A stretch of 64,000 nt of DNA. It comes from Candidatus Gastranaerophilales bacterium (GTDB lineage Bacteria > Cyanobacteriota > Vampirovibrionia > Gastranaerophilales > Gastranaerophilaceae). A program made the translations under genes and the position numbers. Positions 2,887-13,688 of the stretch are shown here, piece by piece. Below the pieces are notes generated by a model. It ran no database searches, had not been told where the DNA came from, and was given only the letters and a program-made list of their open reading frames with translations. Position 1 is the first letter of the stretch. Each line of letters starts with the position of its first letter. Where the stretch lies: contig CALUVG010000008.1 in the NCBI GenBank assembly GCA_944324165.1, positions 1 to 64,000 of the forward strand. The letters are read 5' to 3'.

Positions 2887-3183
2887 TTAATATTTTCTTA
2901 TTATTGAACTTAGTTGTGAATGAATTTTGTTTTTATATTTTTCTTGAATATCATTTATCTTTTCTAGTTCTTTTATAATTCGTCTTTCTAACAACCATTC
3001 TTCTTGTGGAGTCAATTCTCTTAATTCATTTAGAGTCATTTTAAAATTGGCTTTTTTGTTTGCTATTAATAAATCCATAACGTGATTTAAGACGTCACCT
3101 TTTATTTGGACGATTGTTCGTTTAGTTGCATTAACAGACTCGATAATCTCTCTTTTAGTTTGTTCGCGAGTTTGTCTGTCCAC
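2887..3183 (-). CDS. Tail assembly chaperone, T frame (made by -1 frameshift)
   Basis: This charged, helical reading frame is open from 3255 to 2887 and overlaps the end of the G-frame gene by about 150 bases in the -1 frame. The only start-like codon, a GTG at 3183, has no ribosome site. In tailed phages the gene before the tape measure is often translated as a G protein and, after -1 slippage, as a G-T fusion that binds the tape measure. Slippage at 3213-3219 would join 124 G residues to 108 T residues (232 in total). I regard it as the second half of a fusion rather than an independent gene. Confidence 0.6.
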   Translation of the reverse strand: MDRQTREQTKREIIESVNATKRTIVQIKGDVLNHVMDLLIANKKANFKMTLNELRELTPQEEWLLERRIIKELEKINDIQEKYKNKIHSQLSSIIRKY

Positions 3184-3584
3184 TCTGTCGGTATTAGAGC
3201 GGACAAACTCGTAAAATTTCCGATATTCTCCTTTATAAAATGCATGACAACTACTCTATATTCGACAAAACCAACGCTCTGCCAGTATTTTTCCCATTCT
3301 GCTTGATCCAATTTTTTCCCATCAATTGTCATATGTTCTTTATTTAAGACAAGATTTGAAATGTATTTTAAGTCTTCTCTATTAAAGATATCTTTACATG
3401 CTTTATATAATGCTGTTAATAATTGTGCATCAGTTAAGTTGTTTGATATGCAGGTTGTAAGGCAAGCAAAAAAGGGAAAAAGTTTTTCCTCTATAATAAA
3501 TCCCAATGTTGTAAATTCTTCAAAGTATAAAGGTCGTGTTGTGTATGTGTGTCCGTTTATTTTACATTCTATTGTCATTTTCAT
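3102..3584 (-). CDS. Phage tail assembly chaperone, G frame
   Basis: A 160-residue protein with an N-terminal beta-rich part (KINGHTYTTRPLYFEEF) and a helical remainder, the layout of tail assembly chaperones of contractile-tail phages. It follows the sheath and tube genes and precedes the tape-measure-like gene, the standard position. Its end overlaps a -1 frame open reading frame, and an in-frame A AAT TTT heptamer lies at codons 122-124. The call rests mainly on gene order and the frameshift layout. Confidence 0.6.
   Translation of the reverse strand: MKMTIECKINGHTYTTRPLYFEEFTTLGFIIEEKLFPFFACLTTCISNNLTDAQLLTALYKACKDIFNREDLKYISNLVLNKEHMTIDGKKLDQAEWEKYWQSVGFVEYRVVVMHFIKENIGNFTSLSALIPTEWTDKLANKLKERLSSLLMQLNEQSSK
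3213..3233 (-). promoter_or_regulatory. Predicted -1 programmed frameshift signal
   Basis: On the minus strand the heptamer AAATTTT occupies 3219-3213 and is phased as A AAT TTT in the G frame, which fits X XXY YYZ. AAAGGAG lies just upstream (3234-3228), about 8 bases before the heptamer. That resembles the internal Shine-Dalgarno stimulator of E. coli dnaX. A -1 slip enters the open T frame directly at TAC (3213). Confidence 0.6.
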
Positions 3585-3620
3585 ATTCTCCTATTTAAAA
3601 TTTCTACAATTTAAATGACA

Positions 3621-3650
3621 TGCATGGTAAGGCTTAAGCCTTACCATGCA
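3621..3650. terminator. Perfect 30-base palindrome after the tail tube gene
   Basis: TGCATGGTAAGGCTT at 3621-3635 is followed directly by its exact reverse complement at 3636-3650. It lies between the tube gene stop (3667) and the chaperone start (3584). No T-run follows on the minus strand, so it may be an attenuating or RNA-stabilising hairpin rather than a full terminator. It could serve to set high tube but low chaperone expression. Confidence 0.5.
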
Positions 3651-3666
3651 GCCGTATTCGGCAAAA

Positions 3667-4047
3667 TTATTTACCGTTTCTGTAAAGTGCACTCCAGGTT
3701 ACTACTCTTGTGCGGGCATCCTGTTCTCCTGATATACTGGAGATTACACAATCTGTGAATGTGTCTGATATACCTGTGTTTAAGTCACGGACAACCAGTG
3801 TATCTTCTGTATAATTTATGTTGTCTTCAATTAACATAGGTAAGCTTACACTATCTGCCTTGAATGATCTTGTAATCCTCCACATTCTTTGATTGTTCGC
3901 GATGTTCAATCCTTCACCCTGAACGCCTTTGTACGGTTGTACGCTCTCTCCTTGTTGAGCTATACTGTATGCGTGGTCATCGCCTGTTCCGCTTAATGTT
4001 ATTCCACGCCACATAAATTCTATATTTTTACTATCATATACTGTCAT
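3667..4047 (-). CDS. Phage tail tube protein (DUF3277-like)
   Basis: A 126-residue beta-rich protein that would polymerise into the inner tube of a contractile tail. Length, the start MTVYDSKNIEFMWRG and the ending with repeated short strands (RTRVVTWSALYRNGK) resemble the tube family found next to DUF3383-type sheath genes. It starts 24 bases after the sheath stop, and AGGAG precedes the ATG. Gene order sheath-tube-chaperone supports the call. There is no catalytic motif to check. Confidence 0.65.
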   Translation of the reverse strand: MTVYDSKNIEFMWRGITLSGTGDDHAYSIAQQGESVQPYKGVQGEGLNIANNQRMWRITRSFKADSVSLPMLIEDNINYTEDTLVVRDLNTGISDTFTDCVISSISGEQDARTRVVTWSALYRNGK

Positions 4048-4071
4048 TTTGTTCTCCTATTTTTCAGTATT

Positions 4072-5214
4072 TTATTCCTCTTCACCAAGAATTTGTTCAA
4101 TGTCTTCATCTGATGGGTCTACGAAGAAAGTGAAATCAACTTTTTCGCCTACAATTGCATCATAATAGTAACCGGTCATTTTGAATTTTTTCTGTTCATA
4201 TGCTTCGGTATCTGTGTTCATAATGCTGTTTGCGCCAACTCTGATTGGAATTACATTTAAATGGTATCCTACCTGTTGATTTGTGGTCGGAATTATCAGA
4301 TTATAGGTTTGGAAACTTCTGAAACGTTTATCTGCCATTGATAAAAGCAAATTATTACCGGTTTCATCATAAATCGGCTTTTTATTGAAAAATTCCAATG
4401 CCATCAAGCCCATTGATTTTTTGATATAGTGTTTAATCATTTCGCGTTGTCTCAATTCGCCGCCAAGCATTCTTGAACCTATTACCCAGTTGTATCCAAA
4501 ACTGTCTGTTTGACCGCCTTCGATTGGTGAAACATTGGTGTAATAAGCAATATTTTTTGTTTTCATGTCTGAAATTTCAGAACCTGTATATGTTTCCGGT
4601 AAAATACCACTTAGCTGCGTGAATTGTGCTGAGCCATCCTTTGCACCAAAATAGCCGCAGGTTGAAGTTGAAGCAACAGCAGACGCGATTGGATCAGTTG
4701 CTGTTTTTCTGAATATTGCATATGTATAATTGTTTCCTGATGCAACAATATCAGATACATCAGAAGTGTTTGTAACTGCAATATCGCAGAATCTGTCATT
4801 TGTCTGGCACCAGTTTGCAACTTCTTTTAAATCTGCAGCAGTACGTGAAAGCGGTACAACTTTTGCAAAACGCCCGTCATACGCTTTTGCTTTATCAAGG
4901 GTTTCAGACAAACTTTCTTCTTCTGTTTGCTGCGCTACAATTAAATACATAATCTGGGAAGTGGTTTGAGAGTTATTTTTTTGATTAAATACAGCATTTG
5001 CCTCAATCGCAACCTGTGAAGATGCCTGAAAATCAGCAATTACTTCATCATAAGATGAATATTTTTTGACTCCGCTTTCAGGAAATTCTACACTTGTTTG
5101 CAAATCTGTACTTTCAAATTCTCCAACAAGAAGTATGTTTTTGAAGTATTCTTCTAAACTGCGTCCATCGGGAAGTTTAAAAAGAATACTTACCAGGTCA
5201 TTGTAAGTACTCAT
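4072..5214 (-). CDS. Phage contractile tail sheath protein (DUF3383-like)
   Basis: A 380-residue protein that would form the contracting outer sheath. Features typical of the DUF3383 group are the N-terminal DLVSILFKLPD segment, a central domain with the DRFCDIAVTNTSDVSDIVA stretch and a C-terminal domain of strands ending in FTFFVDPSDEDIEQIL. AAGGAG precedes the ATG. It is followed by the tube gene in the same direction. A sheath implies a myovirus-like tail or a phage-tail-like bacteriocin; no sequence here distinguishes these. Confidence 0.7.
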   Translation of the reverse strand: MSTYNDLVSILFKLPDGRSLEEYFKNILLVGEFESTDLQTSVEFPESGVKKYSSYDEVIADFQASSQVAIEANAVFNQKNNSQTTSQIMYLIVAQQTEEESLSETLDKAKAYDGRFAKVVPLSRTAADLKEVANWCQTNDRFCDIAVTNTSDVSDIVASGNNYTYAIFRKTATDPIASAVASTSTCGYFGAKDGSAQFTQLSGILPETYTGSEISDMKTKNIAYYTNVSPIEGGQTDSFGYNWVIGSRMLGGELRQREMIKHYIKKSMGLMALEFFNKKPIYDETGNNLLLSMADKRFRSFQTYNLIIPTTNQQVGYHLNVIPIRVGANSIMNTDTEAYEQKKFKMTGYYYDAIVGEKVDFTFFVDPSDEDIEQILGEEE

Positions 5215-5275
5215 TAGTTCTCCTTTTCATTTTTAATGTTTTCTACAATACTGAATGTGACCGGAAACACATTTT

Positions 5276-5830
5276 TTAAAAGTTATCAATATGTATTTCC
5301 AATTCTTTGCCGGTTTCCGGAGTAAATTCTTCTATATCTTCATATTCAAAAGGTAAATCAAATTCTTTTCTGAATTCCTGTGTTTGACCGGACAGTTTAC
5401 TGAAATCCCGAATATCTGAGACTTCTAATTCATTAATCACTATACCCTGTTCTGCAAATTTGTTGAATGTTTCTCTTGATTCTGTGAAAAGTCTTTCTAT
5501 GAATTCAATTATTTCAACAGTAAGCACATCAGCAATAGTAAAAAAATCTTCTGTCGAAAGTGCATAAACACCAAATGTAACAAGTAATTGTTTACTTCTT
5601 TTACGATAGTATTTACCATCGGATTTATATTCCTCAAATCGTTTGTTGATTTTTGCAATTTTTTTGTCGATCAGGGTGATATAAATCTTGTCCGGGCTTT
5701 GGTCTTTCAGTCTTCCCCAGAAAATTTCATCTCTGGAATCTTCCATTAATTCGAAATTTTCGGGGAATTCCTGAAAGATTTTTTCTTTAAGATAATCATA
5801 GATGATTTTTTTTACGGTATTTGTCTTCAT
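5276..5830 (-). CDS. Putative tail terminator/neck protein
   Basis: I place the start at 5830 because AAAGGA precedes this ATG; a longer frame reaching 5935 has no ribosome site. The 184-residue product has an N-terminal helix, a central strand pair (DKIYITLID, QLLVTFGVYAL) and a long helix (residues about 105-140). Tail terminator or neck proteins are usually encoded just before the sheath and share this size. No defining motif is seen, so the call rests on place and size. The acidic C-terminus is unusual. Confidence 0.4.
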   Translation of the reverse strand: MKTNTVKKIIYDYLKEKIFQEFPENFELMEDSRDEIFWGRLKDQSPDKIYITLIDKKIAKINKRFEEYKSDGKYYRKRSKQLLVTFGVYALSTEDFFTIADVLTVEIIEFIERLFTESRETFNKFAEQGIVINELEVSDIRDFSKLSGQTQEFRKEFDLPFEYEDIEEFTPETGKELEIHIDNF

Positions 5831-5840
5831 AAAATTTCCT

Positions 5841-6227
5841 TTACTTCTTTTTTGAACAAAATTCTTCATTTGTTCCCACACGTCTATTGTTAAAATTGTA
5901 GATAATACCGAAATTGTTATAAAACAATCGTTCATTATCGAGAGACCCTTTGCTGATATTTTGGAAGATAGGAACTTTTAGAGTTAATTTATCTCTGAGT
6001 TTAACGGCTTTATTCCCGGCACATCTTTTCAGAGTTTTAATTTTACCGTTAGCATCACAAATCTTTATAATAGCAACTGACTGCTTGCATACGGCACACT
6101 CATCAAGAAAGTAGAGCCGTTTCCAGCTTCCAAAATTTACAGGCAGGTCATAAATTTTGCAAGGTTGATTAACCCCGCAGCAATAAATGTATTTATCCAA
6201 AGCCAAGCCCTCCATCAATGTTGGCAA
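5841..6227 (-). CDS. Cysteine-containing protein of unknown function
   Basis: A 128-residue frame at the head of the tail operon, ending 11 bases before the next start. It has several cysteines (YCCG, C.VC, ..ICDANG, RCAG) that could bind zinc; they are spaced like an irregular zinc ribbon. The first ATGs (6227, 6215) have no ribosome site, so the start is uncertain. I do not recognise the family. Position suggests a phage structural or regulatory gene. Confidence 0.4.
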   Translation of the reverse strand: MPTLMEGLALDKYIYCCGVNQPCKIYDLPVNFGSWKRLYFLDECAVCKQSVAIIKICDANGKIKTLKRCAGNKAVKLRDKLTLKVPIFQNISKGSLDNERLFYNNFGIIYNFNNRRVGTNEEFCSKKK

Positions 6228-6332
6228 TCTGTTCTGGTTAAACCTTATGCGGGTGCTTTAAAGCAGTTTAGCCTTTGTATGCCAACTCCGGCTATTCATA
6301 ATATAACGAATTGTTTTTAAAATAACAAGTCG

Positions 6333-6397
6333 GTGAAAACATATAGACGAAAACATATAGGTGAAAACGTGTAGGTGTTTTCATGTAGGTGAAAATG
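6333..6397. repeat. Tandem 14-bp repeat, about 4.6 units
   Basis: Units of 14 bases start at 6333, 6347, 6361, 6375 and 6389 (partial). Three begin GTGAAAAC or ACGAAAAC and end ATAG or GTAG; the fourth has the inverted core GTGTTTTC. The block lies in the 255-base space between the tail operon and the plus-strand gene at 6483, a likely control region, and looks like iterated operator or iteron sites. Confidence 0.6.
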
Positions 6398-6482
6398 GGG
6401 ACAAAGAGGTCTGAAACCCTTGCTGTTACTGGGCTGGCAAAAAAATATTTTTACGTGTTTTTTGCAGTATAAAGGAGTTTAT

Positions 6483-7049
6483 ATGGAAAAAAACATAACC
6501 TTTACCTCAGGAATAAGGGCAATTACATGCAAACAATTTTCTAATGAATTTATGCGATTAGCTCCTAAATCAAGTGTGGATTATCCATGGACGCTGGCAG
6601 AATCTGTAAAAGGTACATCGGCATATACCCGTGGAGTTGCTGACTGTACGGTTTGCGGAATAACAGATGGTAAAGATGTCTTGTTAATGCATATTTGTCC
6701 TACAATGAAGAGCAACCATAATGTTAGTCAGCTGCGGCAGTTCATTGCAAATAAAATAGATTTAAAAAAGGATGATTTGCAAGGAATTTTAGTAGGCTCA
6801 AAGTTAAGTAAACTTAGCCAGAATATTTATAATATGTTTGCAGAGTTCTTAGAAAATTATAATATTCCTTTTTCAGAATTAAAAATTGCAAATGATAAGG
6901 TTAATGTGGGATATCTTGGTAATAAAGACGAATGGGTTATTTCATCTTTGAAAATGGATAAATTACTAAATAAGAATTATGAATCTAAAAAAGTATTTAG
7001 TGATACTTTCTCAAAGGTATGTGTTTCTTCAGAAGATGAGATTGTGTGA
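6483..7049 (+). CDS. Unknown protein with a CheD/CNF-like Cys-His pattern
   Basis: The start at 6483 follows a strong AAAGGAG site; an open frame reaches back to 6420 without one. The 188-residue protein has no signal peptide or membrane segment. Residues about 54-80 read as a cysteine followed by two strands and LLMHICP, so a cysteine lies 15 residues before a histidine. CheD- and CNF1-type glutamine deamidases have a similarly spaced Cys-His pair on a beta fold. This is weak evidence and the gene should be treated as unknown. It is next to a TM2 gene on the same strand. Confidence 0.4.
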   Translation: MEKNITFTSGIRAITCKQFSNEFMRLAPKSSVDYPWTLAESVKGTSAYTRGVADCTVCGITDGKDVLLMHICPTMKSNHNVSQLRQFIANKIDLKKDDLQGILVGSKLSKLSQNIYNMFAEFLENYNIPFSELKIANDKVNVGYLGNKDEWVISSLKMDKLLNKNYESKKVFSDTFSKVCVSSEDEIV

Positions 7050-7118
7050 TTAACATACTGATGACAAAATAGTTAAATTAGTTTATAATACTTGTGGAGA
7101 TAGTATGAAGGAGTAATT

Positions 7119-7532
7119 ATGAGTAAAATTATAAAAATAGATGGTGATGATATATTTATAGGGAATTCAGATGGTACAATTACTACTGTTCATCGTAATG
7201 ATTGCAGCGGTTTTACCCCGAATATAGGGGATGTTGTTGAAGTCTATAAAACAGAAACACAGGTTATTGTGTCTAAAAGTTCAACGTTGAGCCAATCAGA
7301 AATTGTACAGCAGGTGGAGCCGGGTAAGAGACCTGTCAATAAAGTTGCATATTGCCTTCTTACTTTTTTCGTGGGCGGGTTTGGAATACATAAATTTTAT
7401 GTCGGCAGGATAGGGGCAGGAATTATGTATTTGTTATTTTTTTGGACTTGTATACCGGCATTTTTAGCATTAATAGACCTTATTGTTGCAATATGTCAGC
7501 CGGCGGATGTAAACGGTAATATTTATGTGTAA
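7119..7532 (+). CDS. TM2-domain protein with N-terminal beta domain
   Basis: A 137-residue protein. Residues 1-60 are strand-rich and soluble (KIIKIDGDDIFIG..), like a small SH3-type or OB-type domain. Residues 70-137 are a clear TM2 domain: two helices joined by GGFGIHKFYVGRIGAGIMY, and DLIVA near the end. AAGGAG precedes the ATG. TM2 proteins with N-terminal soluble domains are common in Firmicutes and gut bacteria and of unknown role. Confidence 0.75.
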   Translation: MSKIIKIDGDDIFIGNSDGTITTVHRNDCSGFTPNIGDVVEVYKTETQVIVSKSSTLSQSEIVQQVEPGKRPVNKVAYCLLTFFVGGFGIHKFYVGRIGAGIMYLLFFWTCIPAFLALIDLIVAICQPADVNGNIYV

Positions 7533-7534
7533 AA

Positions 7535-8173
7535 TTATTTCTGTAAAATGTTATCAAGTTGCTTAAATAATACCATTACTTTTTGACAAGTGGGAACTAG
7601 ATTATTTGTCTTGGACTCGGCTAATCTCACAAGTGCTATATTCAAATTTTCTTGTTGTTCTGGCGTTCCTTGTGACATGCTTGAAAAGGAATGAATATCA
7701 TTATAGCATTTTTCATAATATTTAAGAAGTGAATTATTAGTTGAAATACTATCTAAGAAAAATTTTGCAGTTATATATAGATTAATTATACACTCACGTA
7801 ATTCATCATTAGTTATTTTCCCAATTTTTGATGTGTTTGCATTAAAAACAGTAAAATAATCTGTGCCCAGCGGATAAGAAAACCATAAGTATTTTTCATC
7901 TGTAAGTATTTTGGGCATAAATTCAAATTCGAATATCTGTCTCAATCCGTTCAGTTCCGCAATAATAGCTTTTATTGTAGCTTTAGTTTCAATTTCTTCT
8001 TGTTTTTTCAGTAATTCAAAATTATTTTCATAATTTTTCTGAACTGTATATATTGATGTAAATAAAGTAATTAAACCACCAACAACAACGCCACACATAG
8101 AAGTTAAAAATGTTGACCACTGAAATCCATTTGACACTGAACCTAGTAAAATTTCATGTATATTTATATGCAT
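7535..8173 (-). CDS. Membrane-anchored protein of unknown function
   Basis: A 212-residue protein with one transmembrane helix at about residues 20-42 (VVVGGLITLF), then a coiled-coil-like charged helix (NFELLKKQEEIETKATIKAIIAE) and a helical cytoplasmic domain. AAGGGTG precedes the ATG. Similar single-helix proteins are common in accessory islands next to restriction or abortive infection genes, but I do not recognise the family. It is on the same strand as, and 10 bases downstream of, the chimeric helicase/nuclease gene. Confidence 0.5.
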   Translation of the reverse strand: MHINIHEILLGSVSNGFQWSTFLTSMCGVVVGGLITLFTSIYTVQKNYENNFELLKKQEEIETKATIKAIIAELNGLRQIFEFEFMPKILTDEKYLWFSYPLGTDYFTVFNANTSKIGKITNDELRECIINLYITAKFFLDSISTNNSLLKYYEKCYNDIHSFSSMSQGTPEQQENLNIALVRLAESKTNNLVPTCQKVMVLFKQLDNILQK

Positions 8174-8183
8174 ATTTCACCCT

Positions 8184-9926
8184 TTACACATTTATTTTAA
8201 ACTCTTTCCAATCCTTAACCGGTTGTTCTGAGAATAAAATACCGTCTTGCAAGGCGTCAAAGTGTTGTTTCCCGCAATGTATTTTTAATCTTTCAGGACT
8301 TCTCAAATCAAACAGGCTTGTTGTACCTTTTGTTTCAAGTACAAAATAAAGTTTTTGTTCGCCGTCTTTTTCTAAGAACACCGCCCAATCAGGGTTATAA
8401 CTTCCTATAGGGGTTTCAATTTTAAACCTTGGCGGGATTTTGAAGAACATTTTTACATCCGGATCCTCATCAAGAGATTTTGCAAACCTGCTTTCAACTC
8501 CGCTGTCATAAATCAGGTAATCGTAAACACTGTGTTCTACCTGAACAGCATTTCGGTCAAGGTTTGCAAGAAGTTCGGCACTGTCAAAAATTTCCTGAAC
8601 ATAATATTCTTCGCCTGCAAGTTTAACATATTTTATGCCGTCAATAGCCAGACTGTGGCGGTTGCGCGAGATTATTTCGAGTGCTTTTTCATAAAATCCT
8701 TGAGGGTTGTTTATAAAATCTTTTATTCTGCCGCTTTCCTGCAATATACGGATTATGTCGCTCCGTTTTAAAAGTGTTTCGGCTGAAATTAATCTGACAA
8801 TATCCGGCAGAACTTCATAAGAGCCTGCAATATCCAAACTTCTTCTGTGCATTTCTGTTGAGGATACTCCGGCATTTTCAAGTTCTATTTCAGCTGTTGA
8901 TGAAACAAGTTTTGCTTTTGGAATAACCGGCATTTCAGACAGCTCTTTCACGCAGTTTTTAATTAAAGTTTCAGTGTCTATATTTACTCTGTATGTTGTT
9001 TTTTGCTTAATTTTATCCCACAGTTCTCTAAATTCAGGGGATAAAATTGCCTGTTTTTTCAGTTTAACCGTAACTTCTTTATTTGCATCACGAATAACAG
9101 GGCGGTTGTCGGCTTTTTCTAATGCCTGAATAATTGCACGCTGTGCGGCTTTTGAATAACGTTCACTCAAATCCAATTTATTATCTTTAGATATTTTTTC
9201 ATCCAAATTCCCGAAATCTTTAAGCAAACTGCCTAGCCTTATTTTTTCAAGGTTTGTCCGTTCTTCAATTTCAATTACTGGCAAACTTAGCAGTTTCCTG
9301 CACTTTTCATCCGGCAAAATACTTTCATCTATAAAATGAATTAGCCCGTAAATGTCCCGAATATCTTTTGTAATGGGTGTCGGAGTTAAAAGTAACTTGT
9401 ATGCCTCTCGTACTGCATTTTTTAATATGACCGTTGTGTCTTTTGTGTAATTTGCAAGTACATCCGCCTCATCAAAAATCGCCAGGTCCCAATCAAGTTC
9501 TTTTATTTTATCTGCATGCCTGATAGCACAATCGTATGTTGTCAAAACAATTCCGTCTTCATCAGGTATATTTTTTGTATTATTCCAAAAAACATAAGGA
9601 ATGGTAAAATCAGTATCAAGTTTCCTTTTCCACTGTGTTACAAGATTTGGCGGAAGAACAACCAAAATGTTTTCCTTTCCCTCATACCATTTTTGTCCTG
9701 CAACAAGCAATGCCTCATAAGTTTTACCAAGAGACCCCTCGTCGCAGAGAATACAGCCTTTTAAAAAGTCTGATCGCAATGCAAATCTTGCCGCCGCTAT
9801 CTGATATGGCAAAATCTTTGCAGTTGATGAGGCATAAACAGGCAACAAATTTTTGTCTTTTGACATATCTTCAAGACGCTTCGTCTCTATTAATGCAGAA
9901 TACCTTGTTGAAAATTTACTGCCCAT
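8184..9926 (-). CDS. Chimera of SNF2 ATPase N-lobe and type III restriction enzyme C-terminus
   Basis: Residues 36-205 form the first RecA lobe of an SNF2 helicase: motif I DEGSLGKT, motif Ia VVLPPNLVTQW, motif II FDEAD, and motif III LLTPTPITKDIRDIYGL. From about residue 235 the sequence instead matches the C-terminal part of type III restriction subunits (Res): LSPEFRELWDKIKQKTTYRV, then a PD-(D/E)xK nuclease signature NPDWAVF...YFVLETKG. The second RecA lobe (motifs IV-VI) is absent, so normal helicase action is doubtful. No methyltransferase (mod) gene is near. No ribosome site precedes the ATG at 9926; ATG at 9866 is an alternative. It may be a deletion fusion or a novel nuclease. Confidence 0.7.
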   Translation of the reverse strand: MGSKFSTRYSALIETKRLEDMSKDKNLLPVYASSTAKILPYQIAAARFALRSDFLKGCILCDEGSLGKTYEALLVAGQKWYEGKENILVVLPPNLVTQWKRKLDTDFTIPYVFWNNTKNIPDEDGIVLTTYDCAIRHADKIKELDWDLAIFDEADVLANYTKDTTVILKNAVREAYKLLLTPTPITKDIRDIYGLIHFIDESILPDEKCRKLLSLPVIEIEERTNLEKIRLGSLLKDFGNLDEKISKDNKLDLSERYSKAAQRAIIQALEKADNRPVIRDANKEVTVKLKKQAILSPEFRELWDKIKQKTTYRVNIDTETLIKNCVKELSEMPVIPKAKLVSSTAEIELENAGVSSTEMHRRSLDIAGSYEVLPDIVRLISAETLLKRSDIIRILQESGRIKDFINNPQGFYEKALEIISRNRHSLAIDGIKYVKLAGEEYYVQEIFDSAELLANLDRNAVQVEHSVYDYLIYDSGVESRFAKSLDEDPDVKMFFKIPPRFKIETPIGSYNPDWAVFLEKDGEQKLYFVLETKGTTSLFDLRSPERLKIHCGKQHFDALQDGILFSEQPVKDWKEFKINV

Positions 9927-9970
9927 ACTTAGAATATAGCATAAACAGCTTAAAGTTTATATTATTTATT

Positions 9971-10031: not shown

Positions 10032-10159
10032 TGACCTGTTCGCATTAAACGTGACTACGGTTGAGTGTTGCAAGAACTCCGTTCTTTACACACTCAAGCC
10101 TTCGCACTCTGCTCGCAGGTCGTTCGAATTCAATAGGTGTTCTCATCTTAGCTAAACAG

Positions 10160-10196
10160 CAAAATAAAAGAGGACACAATGTCCTCTTTTATTTTG
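10160..10196 (-). terminator. Hairpin after a tRNA 3'-end fragment
   Basis: CAAAATAAAAGAGGACA at 10160-10176 pairs with 10180-10196, a 17-base-pair stem with a 3-base loop. On the minus strand it directly follows the tRNA-Lys 3'-end duplicate and ends in a T-rich arm, so it fits a tRNA terminator. Confidence 0.6.
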
Positions 10197-10212
10197 CGCT
10201 TGGCGCGATTCG
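10195..10212 (-). repeat. Exact 18-base duplicate of the tRNA-Lys 3' end
   Basis: Bases 10195-10212 are identical to 10419-10436, the discriminator, acceptor 3' strand and start of the T arm of tRNA-Lys. Integrases of tRNA-targeting elements leave such copies as attL/attR. It is a candidate attachment site. Confidence 0.5.
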
Positions 10213-10323
10213 TCTTGGATTTGCTCCACGCTCGCAGAAACTCACCTTTAAGCCTTGCGGCTTAGCCGGTTCGTTCTGCTCGCTATCCGGATTCACTTCG
10301 TTGCATCCGTCCGCAAATCCGCC
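10211..10323. repeat. Dispersed palindrome-ended repeat, copy C
   Basis: GC-rich sequence starting CGTCTTGGATTTGC and ending GTCCGCAAATCC. It shares AGCCGG, CGCTATCCGGA and both ends with copies at 32063-32221 (inverted) and 33739-33950. GGATTTGC and GCAAATCC are inverted terminal motifs. Open frames in it read the repeat and are not supported as genes. Confidence 0.6.
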
Positions 10324-10380
10324 GAACGCTTTGACAAGGCTTACGCCTTGTGCGCGTTCTGCAAATCTTGTCAAAACAGA

Positions 10381-10418
10381 TAAAACAGAGGATAGGTCTA
10401 AGCCTATCCTCTGTTTTA
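10381..10418 (-). terminator. tRNA-Lys terminator hairpin
   Basis: TAAAACAGAGGATAGG at 10381-10396 pairs perfectly with 10403-10418 (16 pairs, 6-base loop). It begins at the base after the tRNA 3' end on the minus strand and ends in a short U-rich arm. Confidence 0.65.
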
Positions 10419-10491
10419 TGCGCTTGGCGCGATTCGAACGCGCGACCTATCCCTTAAAAGGGGAGTGCTCTACCTGCTGAGCTACAAGCGC
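10419..10491 (-). tRNA. tRNA-Lys (anticodon TTT)
   Basis: A 73-base cloverleaf on the minus strand. The acceptor GCGCTTG pairs with CAAGCGC, with discriminator A. The D arm is GCTC/GAGC, the anticodon loop CTTTTAA gives TTT, and the T arm is GCGCG-TTCGAAT-CGCGC. The first anticodon-stem pair (27-43) is a C/U mismatch. CCA is not encoded. Its 3' end points to the accessory region at 1-10400, the usual polarity for element integration. Confidence 0.9.
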
Positions 10492-10583
10492 TTATTTGCT
10501 ATTCATTTCGTCAGTAATTTTAATATAGCAAGAACATTTTTTAATGTCAATAACTTTTTCTAAAAATTTATTTTTAAAAAATA

Positions 10584-10607
10584 ACCCTTTCGGGTAGTTT
10601 TTTTTAT
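10584..10607. terminator. Small hairpin with T-run in the space before the synthase gene
   Basis: ACCC-TTTC-GGGT at 10584-10595 is followed by AG and a run of nine T on the plus strand, and by a T-run on the other strand too. No gene feeding it is evident. The whole space 10492-10778 otherwise shows only AT-rich sequence upstream of the next gene. Confidence 0.35.
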
Positions 10608-10778
10608 TGACATGAACAATACTTCGTGATAATTTTTTCTTGGTCTCTGAAATAAATCTCGGGTGAAGATTTGTAACAACTTTGTATGTCTGCATTTTGT
10701 TATAGCAAAAAATAAAATTCACGGATTTTATTTCATATTGACTAGTAAGTATTTATAGTAAAGTAAAAAGGTGTTTGT

Positions 10779-13688
10779 ATGAGTATGGAAGTTCAATCAA
10801 AAACAAATTTATTATCATCCTTTAGCCAAACAAAAATTAACTATCAGCAGCCGCAGTTTAGGCCTGCTCAGCCGCCGGTAACAAACCAGGTTAAGGATGA
10901 ATCGCAACACATACCTGTTATGCAGGAACAACCTAAAAAAGATGAATTTGTCAATACTGCAAATTTAAATGAAAATGCAAACAAGACTCAATCTTTAAAA
11001 AATTTTGCCATGAAATACGGTGGGGTTGTTACTGGTACTGTAGCACTGGCAACTTCTGCCATAGGTTTGCCTATTGCTTATAAAAAAGGTAAAGCTGCAA
11101 ATGGGAAATTGCTTGGAGAGTTGCAGGATGCTGTAGGTACGCTAACACGAAAAATTAAAGATTTAAATGTTGAAGAGCAAATTAAAGAAGCTTTAAAACA
11201 GGCTGCAAAAGAGTCGCCTACAACTGACAGACTACCTTTATCTAAACAATCTATACTTACTACTGCACTTTTAGGTATTGGATCCGGCGTTGGTATTGCT
11301 GAATTCTTGAAAGATAATAAAGACAAAATTAAAGAGCAGGGATTTAGTGATGATGATATTAAAAAAGCTACTGATACTGCTACATCTATAATTGAAAAAC
11401 CTAAAGAAGCGTTGAATAAGGCAAATGAAGTTCATGGCATGGCTCAAGAAGCAAAAAATATTGCAAATGCTTATGACAGCAGAATAACTGTAGCCGTTGA
11501 AAATTCTCGTGATGCTGTCGATGCTGCAGGAGCAAGAGATAAACAGATTATGAATCTCTTCCTGGAACCTTTCTATGATTTAAGACTTTTATCTGTAAGA
11601 GATTGGAACAAAAAAATTGACGCAAATAAATCAGAAGTAGCTATGAAAACTATACATGAAGCTGCAGCTAAAAGACTTGACAGAAGTGCTGCTGATACTA
11701 TTAAAGATATTAAAGCTTACAAAGAAAAATATCCGCAATTAACTGCACAGTGGGCTTTAACATCTGAATATCAGCCTATCAAAAAAGGCGGTTTAGGCGT
11801 TGTTCCTGTGGATTTACAGGATAACTTTACTAAATTAGGTATTGATGCGCCTACATTCATTCCTATGTATTTGAAAAAGAATATGAGTGAATTTAAGGCT
11901 GAATCTGAAATTAATCCGTTGACTGATAAACCGGAAACTCATTATACTTATAGATATGATAAAGAAAAATATGATTTACAGAAACTTGCCGAAGTTAATA
12001 TCCCAACTTATCGTAACGGCAAGCAGTTAATGGAAAAAGTTGAATACTTTAGTGCTGAAAAACCAATTCCGGGATCTGATAAAACTAAAAAATTAATCTT
12101 TGTTAAAAATAATGATTATTTCCGTGATGATATATATGATTCAACCCCATTTGCGGAAGAAACCGAAAAATTCGCGATGTTTACAAAATCTGTCTACACT
12201 CTTGCAAAATATAAGGTTGCTAATGCACTTGGTCAAGATCTTACAGGTGTAGAAAATCTTGTAATTACTGACAGAAAAGCATTTAATGACTTGAAAGCTC
12301 CAAATTCTATGGTGTTGAACGATTGGCATGCAGGTTCAATAGCAGGCTTGTTGAGATACCGTGCTCCTATGGAATATGCTTATAATGAATTATCAGAAAA
12401 AACATTTAATGCATTAAAAGATATGCCTTTATTGATGGTAGGTCATAATTTAGGCGAACAAGGTAATACAAATGGCGGCAGCGGCTCTTTAACCGCAAAA
12501 AATCAGACAACAGAAAATGTTATAAATACTTTGTATGATAATTATGCAATAGCAGTTGCACATAATGGTCACAGCGGTCTTGAAGGTGATGATATGTGTA
12601 ATACAATTCTTATGAAACGTCAGACAGGTGATAAACAATTTAACAACTTGTTCCATGGGGCTGCTTTAGCAGATTGGTTTGAAATCGTATCACCAAATCA
12701 CGCAAATGAATGTATTAATGATGCGATGCAATCACGTATTTTGTGGCCTTTACTTCAGAGAAGAAAAGCTACAGGTACTGTTGGAGGTATTCTCAATGGA
12801 TTGGATAAAAATAAAGTTGCAATGAAGGCTGTATCTACGAATAATTATGTTAAATTCCCTGATAAAAATCAAAAATTGACATTAGAAGTTTATGACAAAA
12901 ATACTCCAATAGATGAAATTATGGAAAAACGTATGGAAAATAAACGCAGAGTTTATCAGGCATTCATTAAACCTCTTATGGACGGCAATTACGCAGGTCA
13001 AGTAGAAGTGGTAAAACCAAATGCCGGAAATTATAATATTTCAGAAGACGATTTTGTAAATGCTCCATTTATTGCATTTGCACATAGATTATCCGGTCAA
13101 AAAGGATTAAGGCATTTCAAAGGAGCAACTATTAGATTATTTGATGAATGGGATAAACTGTTCCCGGGTAAGCCAATGCCTGTTATTTTGGCTGGTGGAC
13201 CACCGGAAAGTGCTGACGAATTAGTCTATCTTGATGAGTTGCGTAATTCCGGAATAGGGGCAAATAAAGAACGTCTGAATAGGACATTTGCACTGAAAGG
13301 TAGCTTGCCAAATCCTGCGATTATGGCTGCAAGTACATTCTTCATGGGACCTTCTGATTATGAGCCTTGCGGTTTAATTCAAGGGGAATGTTTTGCTAAA
13401 GGTACACCGGTCATAGCAACTGATGTCGGAGGTTTCCACGATACTATTGAAGACGGTAAAACAGGTTTCCTTGCTAAGTATCCAAGTGAAGATGAAATTT
13501 ATAACAAGCTGGTTGAAGGACTTCGAATGTACTTCTATGAGCATGATAAATATAAGCAGATGGTAGCAAACGATCTTCAGGTTGACTTTAGCTGGAATCA
13601 GCCTGGCAAAAGAGGCTCTATCTTTGAATATACCGATAAATTGGGATTTGATAGAGATAAATTGCCGGAAGTTGCGCAGGCAGCCTGA
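10779..13688 (+). CDS. Glycogen/starch synthase-like glycosyltransferase with long N-terminal extension
   Basis: The C-terminal 640 residues match family GT5 glycogen synthase, which adds glucose from ADP- or UDP-glucose to alpha-1,4-glucan. Motifs are KKGGLGVVPVDL (the K-x-GGL nucleotide-sugar site) near residue 336, LNDWHAG, VGHNLGEQGN, and the C-terminal GPSDYEPCGLIQGECFAKGTP. At 969 residues it is about twice the usual length. Residues 1-330 are extra: a Pro/Gln-rich start, two short hydrophobic glycine/alanine-rich segments (about 77-100 and 157-176) and charged helices. A similar hydrophobic segment ending in HGKAAKALKE-like sequence occurs in the gene at 63632. GTTTGTATG gives a weak start. 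A hairpin terminator follows. Confidence 0.75.
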   Translation: MSMEVQSKTNLLSSFSQTKINYQQPQFRPAQPPVTNQVKDESQHIPVMQEQPKKDEFVNTANLNENANKTQSLKNFAMKYGGVVTGTVALATSAIGLPIAYKKGKAANGKLLGELQDAVGTLTRKIKDLNVEEQIKEALKQAAKESPTTDRLPLSKQSILTTALLGIGSGVGIAEFLKDNKDKIKEQGFSDDDIKKATDTATSIIEKPKEALNKANEVHGMAQEAKNIANAYDSRITVAVENSRDAVDAAGARDKQIMNLFLEPFYDLRLLSVRDWNKKIDANKSEVAMKTIHEAAAKRLDRSAADTIKDIKAYKEKYPQLTAQWALTSEYQPIKKGGLGVVPVDLQDNFTKLGIDAPTFIPMYLKKNMSEFKAESEINPLTDKPETHYTYRYDKEKYDLQKLAEVNIPTYRNGKQLMEKVEYFSAEKPIPGSDKTKKLIFVKNNDYFRDDIYDSTPFAEETEKFAMFTKSVYTLAKYKVANALGQDLTGVENLVITDRKAFNDLKAPNSMVLNDWHAGSIAGLLRYRAPMEYAYNELSEKTFNALKDMPLLMVGHNLGEQGNTNGGSGSLTAKNQTTENVINTLYDNYAIAVAHNGHSGLEGDDMCNTILMKRQTGDKQFNNLFHGAALADWFEIVSPNHANECINDAMQSRILWPLLQRRKATGTVGGILNGLDKNKVAMKAVSTNNYVKFPDKNQKLTLEVYDKNTPIDEIMEKRMENKRRVYQAFIKPLMDGNYAGQVEVVKPNAGNYNISEDDFVNAPFIAFAHRLSGQKGLRHFKGATIRLFDEWDKLFPGKPMPVILAGGPPESADELVYLDELRNSGIGANKERLNRTFALKGSLPNPAIMAASTFFMGPSDYEPCGLIQGECFAKGTPVIATDVGGFHDTIEDGKTGFLAKYPSEDEIYNKLVEGLRMYFYEHDKYKQMVANDLQVDFSWNQPGKRGSIFEYTDKLGFDRDKLPEVAQAA

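Follow-up and report, generated by a model that had tools for sequence, protein, structure and literature searches.

Type III restriction systems in which mod is preceded by an extra gene for a helicase-like ATPase were reported by Murray et al. (2021; PMC8259958) from more than 500 genomes, and the sections of that report dealing with them describe the role of the extra gene as unclear. According to the same sections, type III restriction depends on Mod for recognition and on ATP hydrolysis. The Res subunit of EcoP15I is laid out, in the domain description given in PMC4490356, as RecA1 (residues 7-269), RecA2 (366-594), a helical spacer (620-810) and then the nuclease. In SNF2 ATPases, the arginine fingers of the ATP site come from lobe 2, which is established knowledge and is also stated in the relevant part of PMC10853773. 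A limited search of the literature on SNF2 proteins with type III restriction found no publication on an SNF2-Res fusion.

An ORF combining SNF2 and Res sequences lies in the first 64,000 nucleotides of contig CALUVG010000008.1 from a Candidatus Gastranaerophilales bacterium, and we refer to this whole stretch as the window. A reading of the DNA letters alone had described the ORF as the first SNF2 lobe fused to a type III Res C-terminus, and had left open whether it was a decayed deletion chimera or a new kind of ATPase-nuclease. Comparison with relatives suggests, with a probability of about 0.92, that the ORF is a recent deletion remnant of an SNF2-mod-res type III module.

The ORF is real (minus strand, 580 aa), and both of the predicted parts were recovered from it. 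Pfam assigned SNF2-rel_dom (E 6e-25) and RE_endonuc (E 5e-36, residues 464-566), PADLOC found REase_III at residues 250-562 (E 4e-73), and residues 643-999 (of 1000) of phrog_11902 were matched by chimera residues 232-579. What had been missed is a third piece, residues ~203-247, whose source begins at about codon 697 of the snf2 gene of L079 (Table 1). The boundaries of the outer parts also shifted: the SNF2 part, placed at residues 36-205, does keep its motif columns, with lobe-1 homology stopping at residue 206, and mapping to relatives puts the start of the Res part at about residue 247 instead of 235. The lobe-1 columns G67-K68 and E153-A154 are conserved in aligned relatives and retained in the window, as are the N-P-D and E-x-K columns of the nuclease, which bear out its assignment as PD-(D/E)xK; N265-P266-D267, E285 and K287 (segment numbering) are invariant across 27 alignment rows. 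Nucleotide identity is 94-95% for the lobe-1 segment (against L010, L011 and L079) and 97-98% for the Res segment (against L008 and L011). No stop codon interrupts the 580 codons, and ~28 bp 5' of the chimera start are conserved with intact relatives.

Table 1. Features of the window around the chimeric ORF, and deletions of the same kind in relatives
Feature	Coordinates	Strand	Remarks
Foreign segment, approximate	7533..9955	.	Absent from congener G001
212-aa protein of no assigned family	7535..8173	-	Also 3' of res in G091
Chimeric ORF: SNF2 lobe 1, SNF2 C-terminal piece, Res C-terminus	8184..9926	-	580 codons; Pfam/PADLOC and mapping
Res residues 713-1046 (of 1046), late spacer and complete PD-(D/E)xK nuclease	8184..9180	-	Chimera residues ~247-580
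Junction 2, snf2 3' part to res	9173..9183	-	Short microhomology
Piece near the 3' end of the same snf2 gene	9183..9320	-	Residues ~203-247; mapping
Junction 1	9308..9320	-	One copy of the 13-bp direct repeat ATTTTGCCGGATG
SNF2 lobe 1	9309..9926	-	Residues 1-206; Walker A (DEGSLGKT) and DEAD motif
tRNA-Lys(ttt)	10419..10491	-	
Independent in-frame deletions in relatives			L013 = G128:C4; L014 = G100:C23; L140 = G342:C98

Several parts of a working system are absent, much as the original prediction had stated. Pfam did not find Helicase_C, the second RecA lobe, in the chimera and did find it in the full-length relatives. The RecA1 and RecA2 motor of Res is also missing from the window. No mod occurs among the ORFs listed on either flank, and a whole-genome search recovered only two partial Mod matches (49-85 residues, 42-58%, contig C47). 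Because Mod and the Res motor are absent, and lobe 1 stands without the lobe that completes its ATP site, the chimera is most likely inactive as a restriction enzyme and, if made, would not restrict DNA.

The intact genes form an operon in the order SNF2 - Mod - Res in relatives that are mostly Ca. Gastranaerophilales. In these relatives, snf2 comprises about 860-890 codons and encodes both lobes (SNF2-rel_dom and Helicase_C), Mod is of type III (N6_N4_Mtase; PADLOC MTase_III, 671 bits), and Res is full length, with a Res of 1046 residues serving as the mapping reference. All three genes were present at E 1e-15 or better in 44 of the 78 genome-contig loci, which derive from the best 80 of 162; many of the loci without all three are truncated where the contig or the flank stops. 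The plasmid record NZ_CP016951.1 is annotated in the same order (SNF2-related protein, site-specific methyltransferase, DEAD/DEAH helicase), as is NZ_OY725736.1, with extra genes. The pieces of the chimera map collinearly to the operon of G091, G080 and L079, and the chimera descends from an operon of this order.

Other features of the family vary among relatives. The small genes between snf2, mod and res differ from one relative to the next (L010, L011, L079, L008), those of L011 encoding a HigB-like toxin with an HTH protein and that of L010 an AAA/zeta-like protein; the gaps are an exchangeable cargo slot within the restriction operon. A 197-aa protein encoded 5' of the intact module in G091 (L178, 18721-19314) and G080 (L179, 17631-18224) looks like a serine recombinase by its sequence. 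In L023, L130 and L134, Res is split into two overlapping frames at ~residue 410, a shared frameshift that could be an inherited break or could reflect phase variation; L023 may be the same genome as L130. In L042 (7986-8717) and L053 (7998-9002), a C-terminal piece of a Res of this family stands by itself, the L053 piece directly 3' of what looks like another type III mod-res pair.

Both junctions can be located on the intact operon. The repeat ATTTTGCCGGATG is present twice, at a spacing of 1,482 bp (494 codons), in the intact snf2 of L178 (G091), L179 (G080) and L079, both copies in codon phase 0 (checked for L178), and only once in the window, exactly at the first joint. The second junction corresponds to a net loss of about 5.84 kb relative to L178, running from the end of snf2 through mod into res, so that a module of ~9.8 kb in G091 is represented by ~2.4 kb in the window. 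This junction has no clean repeat and a few bases that fit neither parent, which counts against the remnant reading.

The joined form was confined to the window's genome. When the protein was searched against 383 genomes of the order (one per species, at most three candidates scored per genome), 55 matched at 1e-20, and the parts were joined in one frame only in the genome of the window; elsewhere in that search, Res was found at 26 places with open frames of at least 980 aa and at ten more where it was shortened, broken or cut. A 261-bp DNA probe across both junctions matched 50 of the 383 genomes in part or whole. It was covered over 1-261 only in the window's genome, all other listed matches being partial, and in the closest relatives the matches break at 1-73, 61-198 or 203, and 201 or 202-261, that is, at the two junctions. 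The pieces were joined in none of 82 contig loci (the 78 genome-contig loci plus four viral), nor did exact 30-base junction patterns match the viral contigs. The search for orthologs with the same junction, proposed with the original prediction, thus returned none in either set. Given the 13-bp repeat at the first junction, the intact separate genes in relatives and the restriction of the junction to this genome, the chimera can be regarded as a deletion product, one of the two options first put forward; the other, a new kind of ATPase-nuclease, is disfavored by this combination of a single-genome junction and separate genes in relatives, which had been named beforehand as refuting it.

Some apparent fusions elsewhere were rejected on inspection. 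Matches in L013, L018, L021, L024, L028, L031, L032, L069 and L070 extend over residues 94-580, 118-580 and similar ranges of the chimera, but before residue 247 they hold only 4/24 to 29/143 identities and represent Res with a chance extension of the alignment. L041, L043-L046 and L048 (Alphaproteobacterial) and the viral contig L004 carry res with snf2 directly after it, in separate frames and in the reverse order.

The chimera sits in a segment that appears foreign to its surroundings. In congener G001, the window flanks 2966-7532 and 10060-10787 are collinear with about 50 bp between them (L173, 734 and 787), and none of five congeners matched the chimera at 1e-20. Window positions 7532-9180 are collinear with L178 8609-10269 (90% nt), and in G091 the similarity stops where it does in the window, after the homologue of the 212-aa gene. 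A 21-bp copy of the 3' end of tRNA-Lys at 10192-10212 suggests a putative integration site, and G091 and G080 have a 43-44-bp copy of this tRNA end after the module. Near the tRNA, at about 10212-10322, lies a ~110-bp repeat with dozens of copies genome-wide (most of 46 matches). Contractile-tail genes (tail sheath phrog_205, tail-terminator-like, structural phrog_280) occupy 2966-5935 beside tRNA-Lys, with counterparts at the same site in two of the five congeners (L173 in G001, L177 in G005), and are possibly an old prophage or tail-like particle. An origin of the chimera as prophage cargo was considered and rejected: G001 has the tail genes at the same site without the chimera, which therefore does not simply belong with them.

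The most likely history begins with a ~9.8-kb type III module (mod and res, preceded by an SNF2-type helicase gene and followed by a short gene, with small genes that vary in the gaps) beside tRNA-Lys of a Gastranaerophilales bacterium. As the comparison shows, deletion between the two copies of the 13-bp repeat removed SNF2 lobe 2 and the part following it (1,482 bp), and another deletion took out the snf2 end, the whole of mod and the Res part with the RecA motor (about 5.84 kb net), both in frame. The remnant is still translatable and, of what type III restriction needs, has kept only the nuclease, having lost Mod, a complete SNF2 ATPase and the Res motor. Joint loss of restriction and modification would be harmless to the host, and the remnant would presumably disappear in time.

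The deletions probably happened recently. Against intact relatives, dN/dS is 0.08-0.12 for the lobe-1 part (ten closest rows) and 0.04-0.07 for the Res part (eight closest rows). Counted at columns where relatives agree, window-specific codons amount to one synonymous and no nonsynonymous in the first part (5 rows, two identical) and two synonymous and no nonsynonymous in the second (10 rows, about five independent sequences). Judged from these counts, nearly all divergence predates the fusion or is shared polymorphism. Since window-specific changes are few and none is nonsynonymous, the deletions look recent, and the data fit neutral drift or selection after the fusion alike. The description of the ORF as decayed therefore holds for the large deleted parts but not for what remains, an open frame with almost no change of its own. 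Survival of that frame through two deletions and over 580 codons, with the catalytic motifs of both halves intact, counts against the remnant reading.

Retention of the reading frame extends beyond the window. Frame-blind match chaining over 140 loci turned up two separate large deletions of the module in the window, another two in L013 and one each in L014 and L140 (for these relatives, within mod and res; within snf2; and at the snf2-mod joint); L024 was left out as more complex on DNA comparison, and L121 duplicates L013. That such deletions arose independently in L013, L014 and L140 favors the remnant reading, and that the frame is kept in 6/6 counts against it. Among direct repeats spaced by 300 bp or more in the L011 operon, those of at least 13 bp are in phase in 5/5 cases and those of at least 12 bp in 11/13, as against 608/1058 for 8 bp or more and 5893/11440 for 6 bp or more. 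Because the long repeats are mostly in phase, an in-frame first junction is expected without selection. For the other five deletions, the joint chance that all are in frame is very roughly 0.01-0.05, an estimate made after the fact. Frame-broken copies also occur (G060, G074, G251, L023).

These frame-keeping deletions could indicate that in-frame remnants are kept above chance for a benefit they bring: dominant-negative or nuclease-only proteins, for instance, might dampen modules of their own family as these arrive. The window chimera would then be one selected remnant, an idea to which we give only a slim chance. Alternatively, the chimera may be an orphan remnant with a side effect, its Res C-terminus or SNF2 lobe poisoning or regulating incoming Mod-Res complexes. 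Such a dominant-negative effect would explain why all six deletions preserve the frame, and the persistence of C-terminal Res pieces on their own in L042 and L053 is in keeping with it; however, in-phase repeats already account for the frame at the first junction, and the frame-broken copies argue against it, making this a very improbable reading. A new functional ATPase-nuclease, a minimal defense effector that does without lobe 2 and Mod and whose lobe 1 would bind ATP or DNA while presenting the nuclease of Res, is in our view equally improbable. The open in-frame ORF, the intact motif sets of both halves, the conserved bases upstream of its start and the fair confidence with which lobe 1 was modeled agree with such an enzyme, yet it would be found in one genome only, and its ATP site, with lobe 1 alone, is without the arginine fingers of lobe 2.

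Structure prediction also bears on the idea of a new enzyme, the original prediction having proposed it as a check on whether the fused parts pack. AlphaFold, run on a shallow alignment of 16 rows, gave the chimera a mean pLDDT of 54 and a pTM of 0.40, and the model was good only for SNF2 lobe 1, where 10-residue blocks over residues 71-200 scored 79-94 except for one at 58. Residues 204-315 had pLDDT below 50 and no packing of the fused parts was predicted, which speaks against a new enzyme but, with 16 rows, is weak evidence. Foldseek matched the chimera model to SNF2 ATPases, the rows spanning most of the model having rmsd above 10. The C-terminal part modeled alone (27 rows) had a mean pLDDT of 57 and no PDB match at E 0.001, a result that says nothing for or against its fold. 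A first, mixed alignment of 46 rows was misaligned and was left out.

Least probable of all is an assembly artifact, whereby the true genome holds an intact module whose pieces were joined by the assembler. The genome is a draft of 55 contigs, which is in keeping with this, but at an estimated completeness of 99.96% it has the Res C-terminus only once and lacks a Mod of the family. Moreover, two joins ~130 bp apart, with small differences of their own and one of them at a 13-bp repeat, would in our judgment be unusual for misassembly.

Read as a deletion remnant, the chimera illustrates how two frame-keeping deletions can yield a convincing "new domain architecture." Mapping each piece to intact relatives and seeking a repeat at the joint offers a way to catch such chimeras, and here it leaves the list of new defense proteins shorter by one false candidate. 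The comparison also yields a small set of naturally occurring deletion derivatives of a type III module whose extra SNF2-type ATPase has a still unexplained role.

Among known systems, the nearest named SNF2 family by score is DISARM DrmD (NF038318, PDLC02619), with 98 bits for the chimera and 272 for the intact SNF2 protein of L079, both far below the cutoff of 950 bits; by Pfam, none of nine proteins from L010, L011 and L079 and none of seven in the window is DrmA, DrmB or DrmC. Zorya ZorD resembles the chimera in combining SNF2 and a nuclease in one chain, but its nuclease is Mrr-like according to the PADLOC description, whereas the chimera has RE_endonuc and no lobe 2 and reaches 30 bits on the ZorD profile (cutoff 1500). 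EcoP15I Res (PDB 4zcf) is the only relative of the intact Res with a solved structure (E 2e-64); the chimera C-terminus aligns to its residues 835-946 and, set against the domain layout in PMC4490356, lacks RecA1 and RecA2 and keeps the late spacer and the nuclease. The closest counterpart of the parent operon in gene order is the Eco86II/BspHIV group, which, as described in the relevant sections of PMC8259958, shares the order of helicase-like gene, mod and res and has a Res with a PD-(D/E)xK C-terminus. Compared with that group, the locus here has lost mod, the Res motor and SNF2 lobe 2. The gene order of the parent operon, in which the helicase-like ATPase gene lies upstream of mod and res, fits the one already published there.
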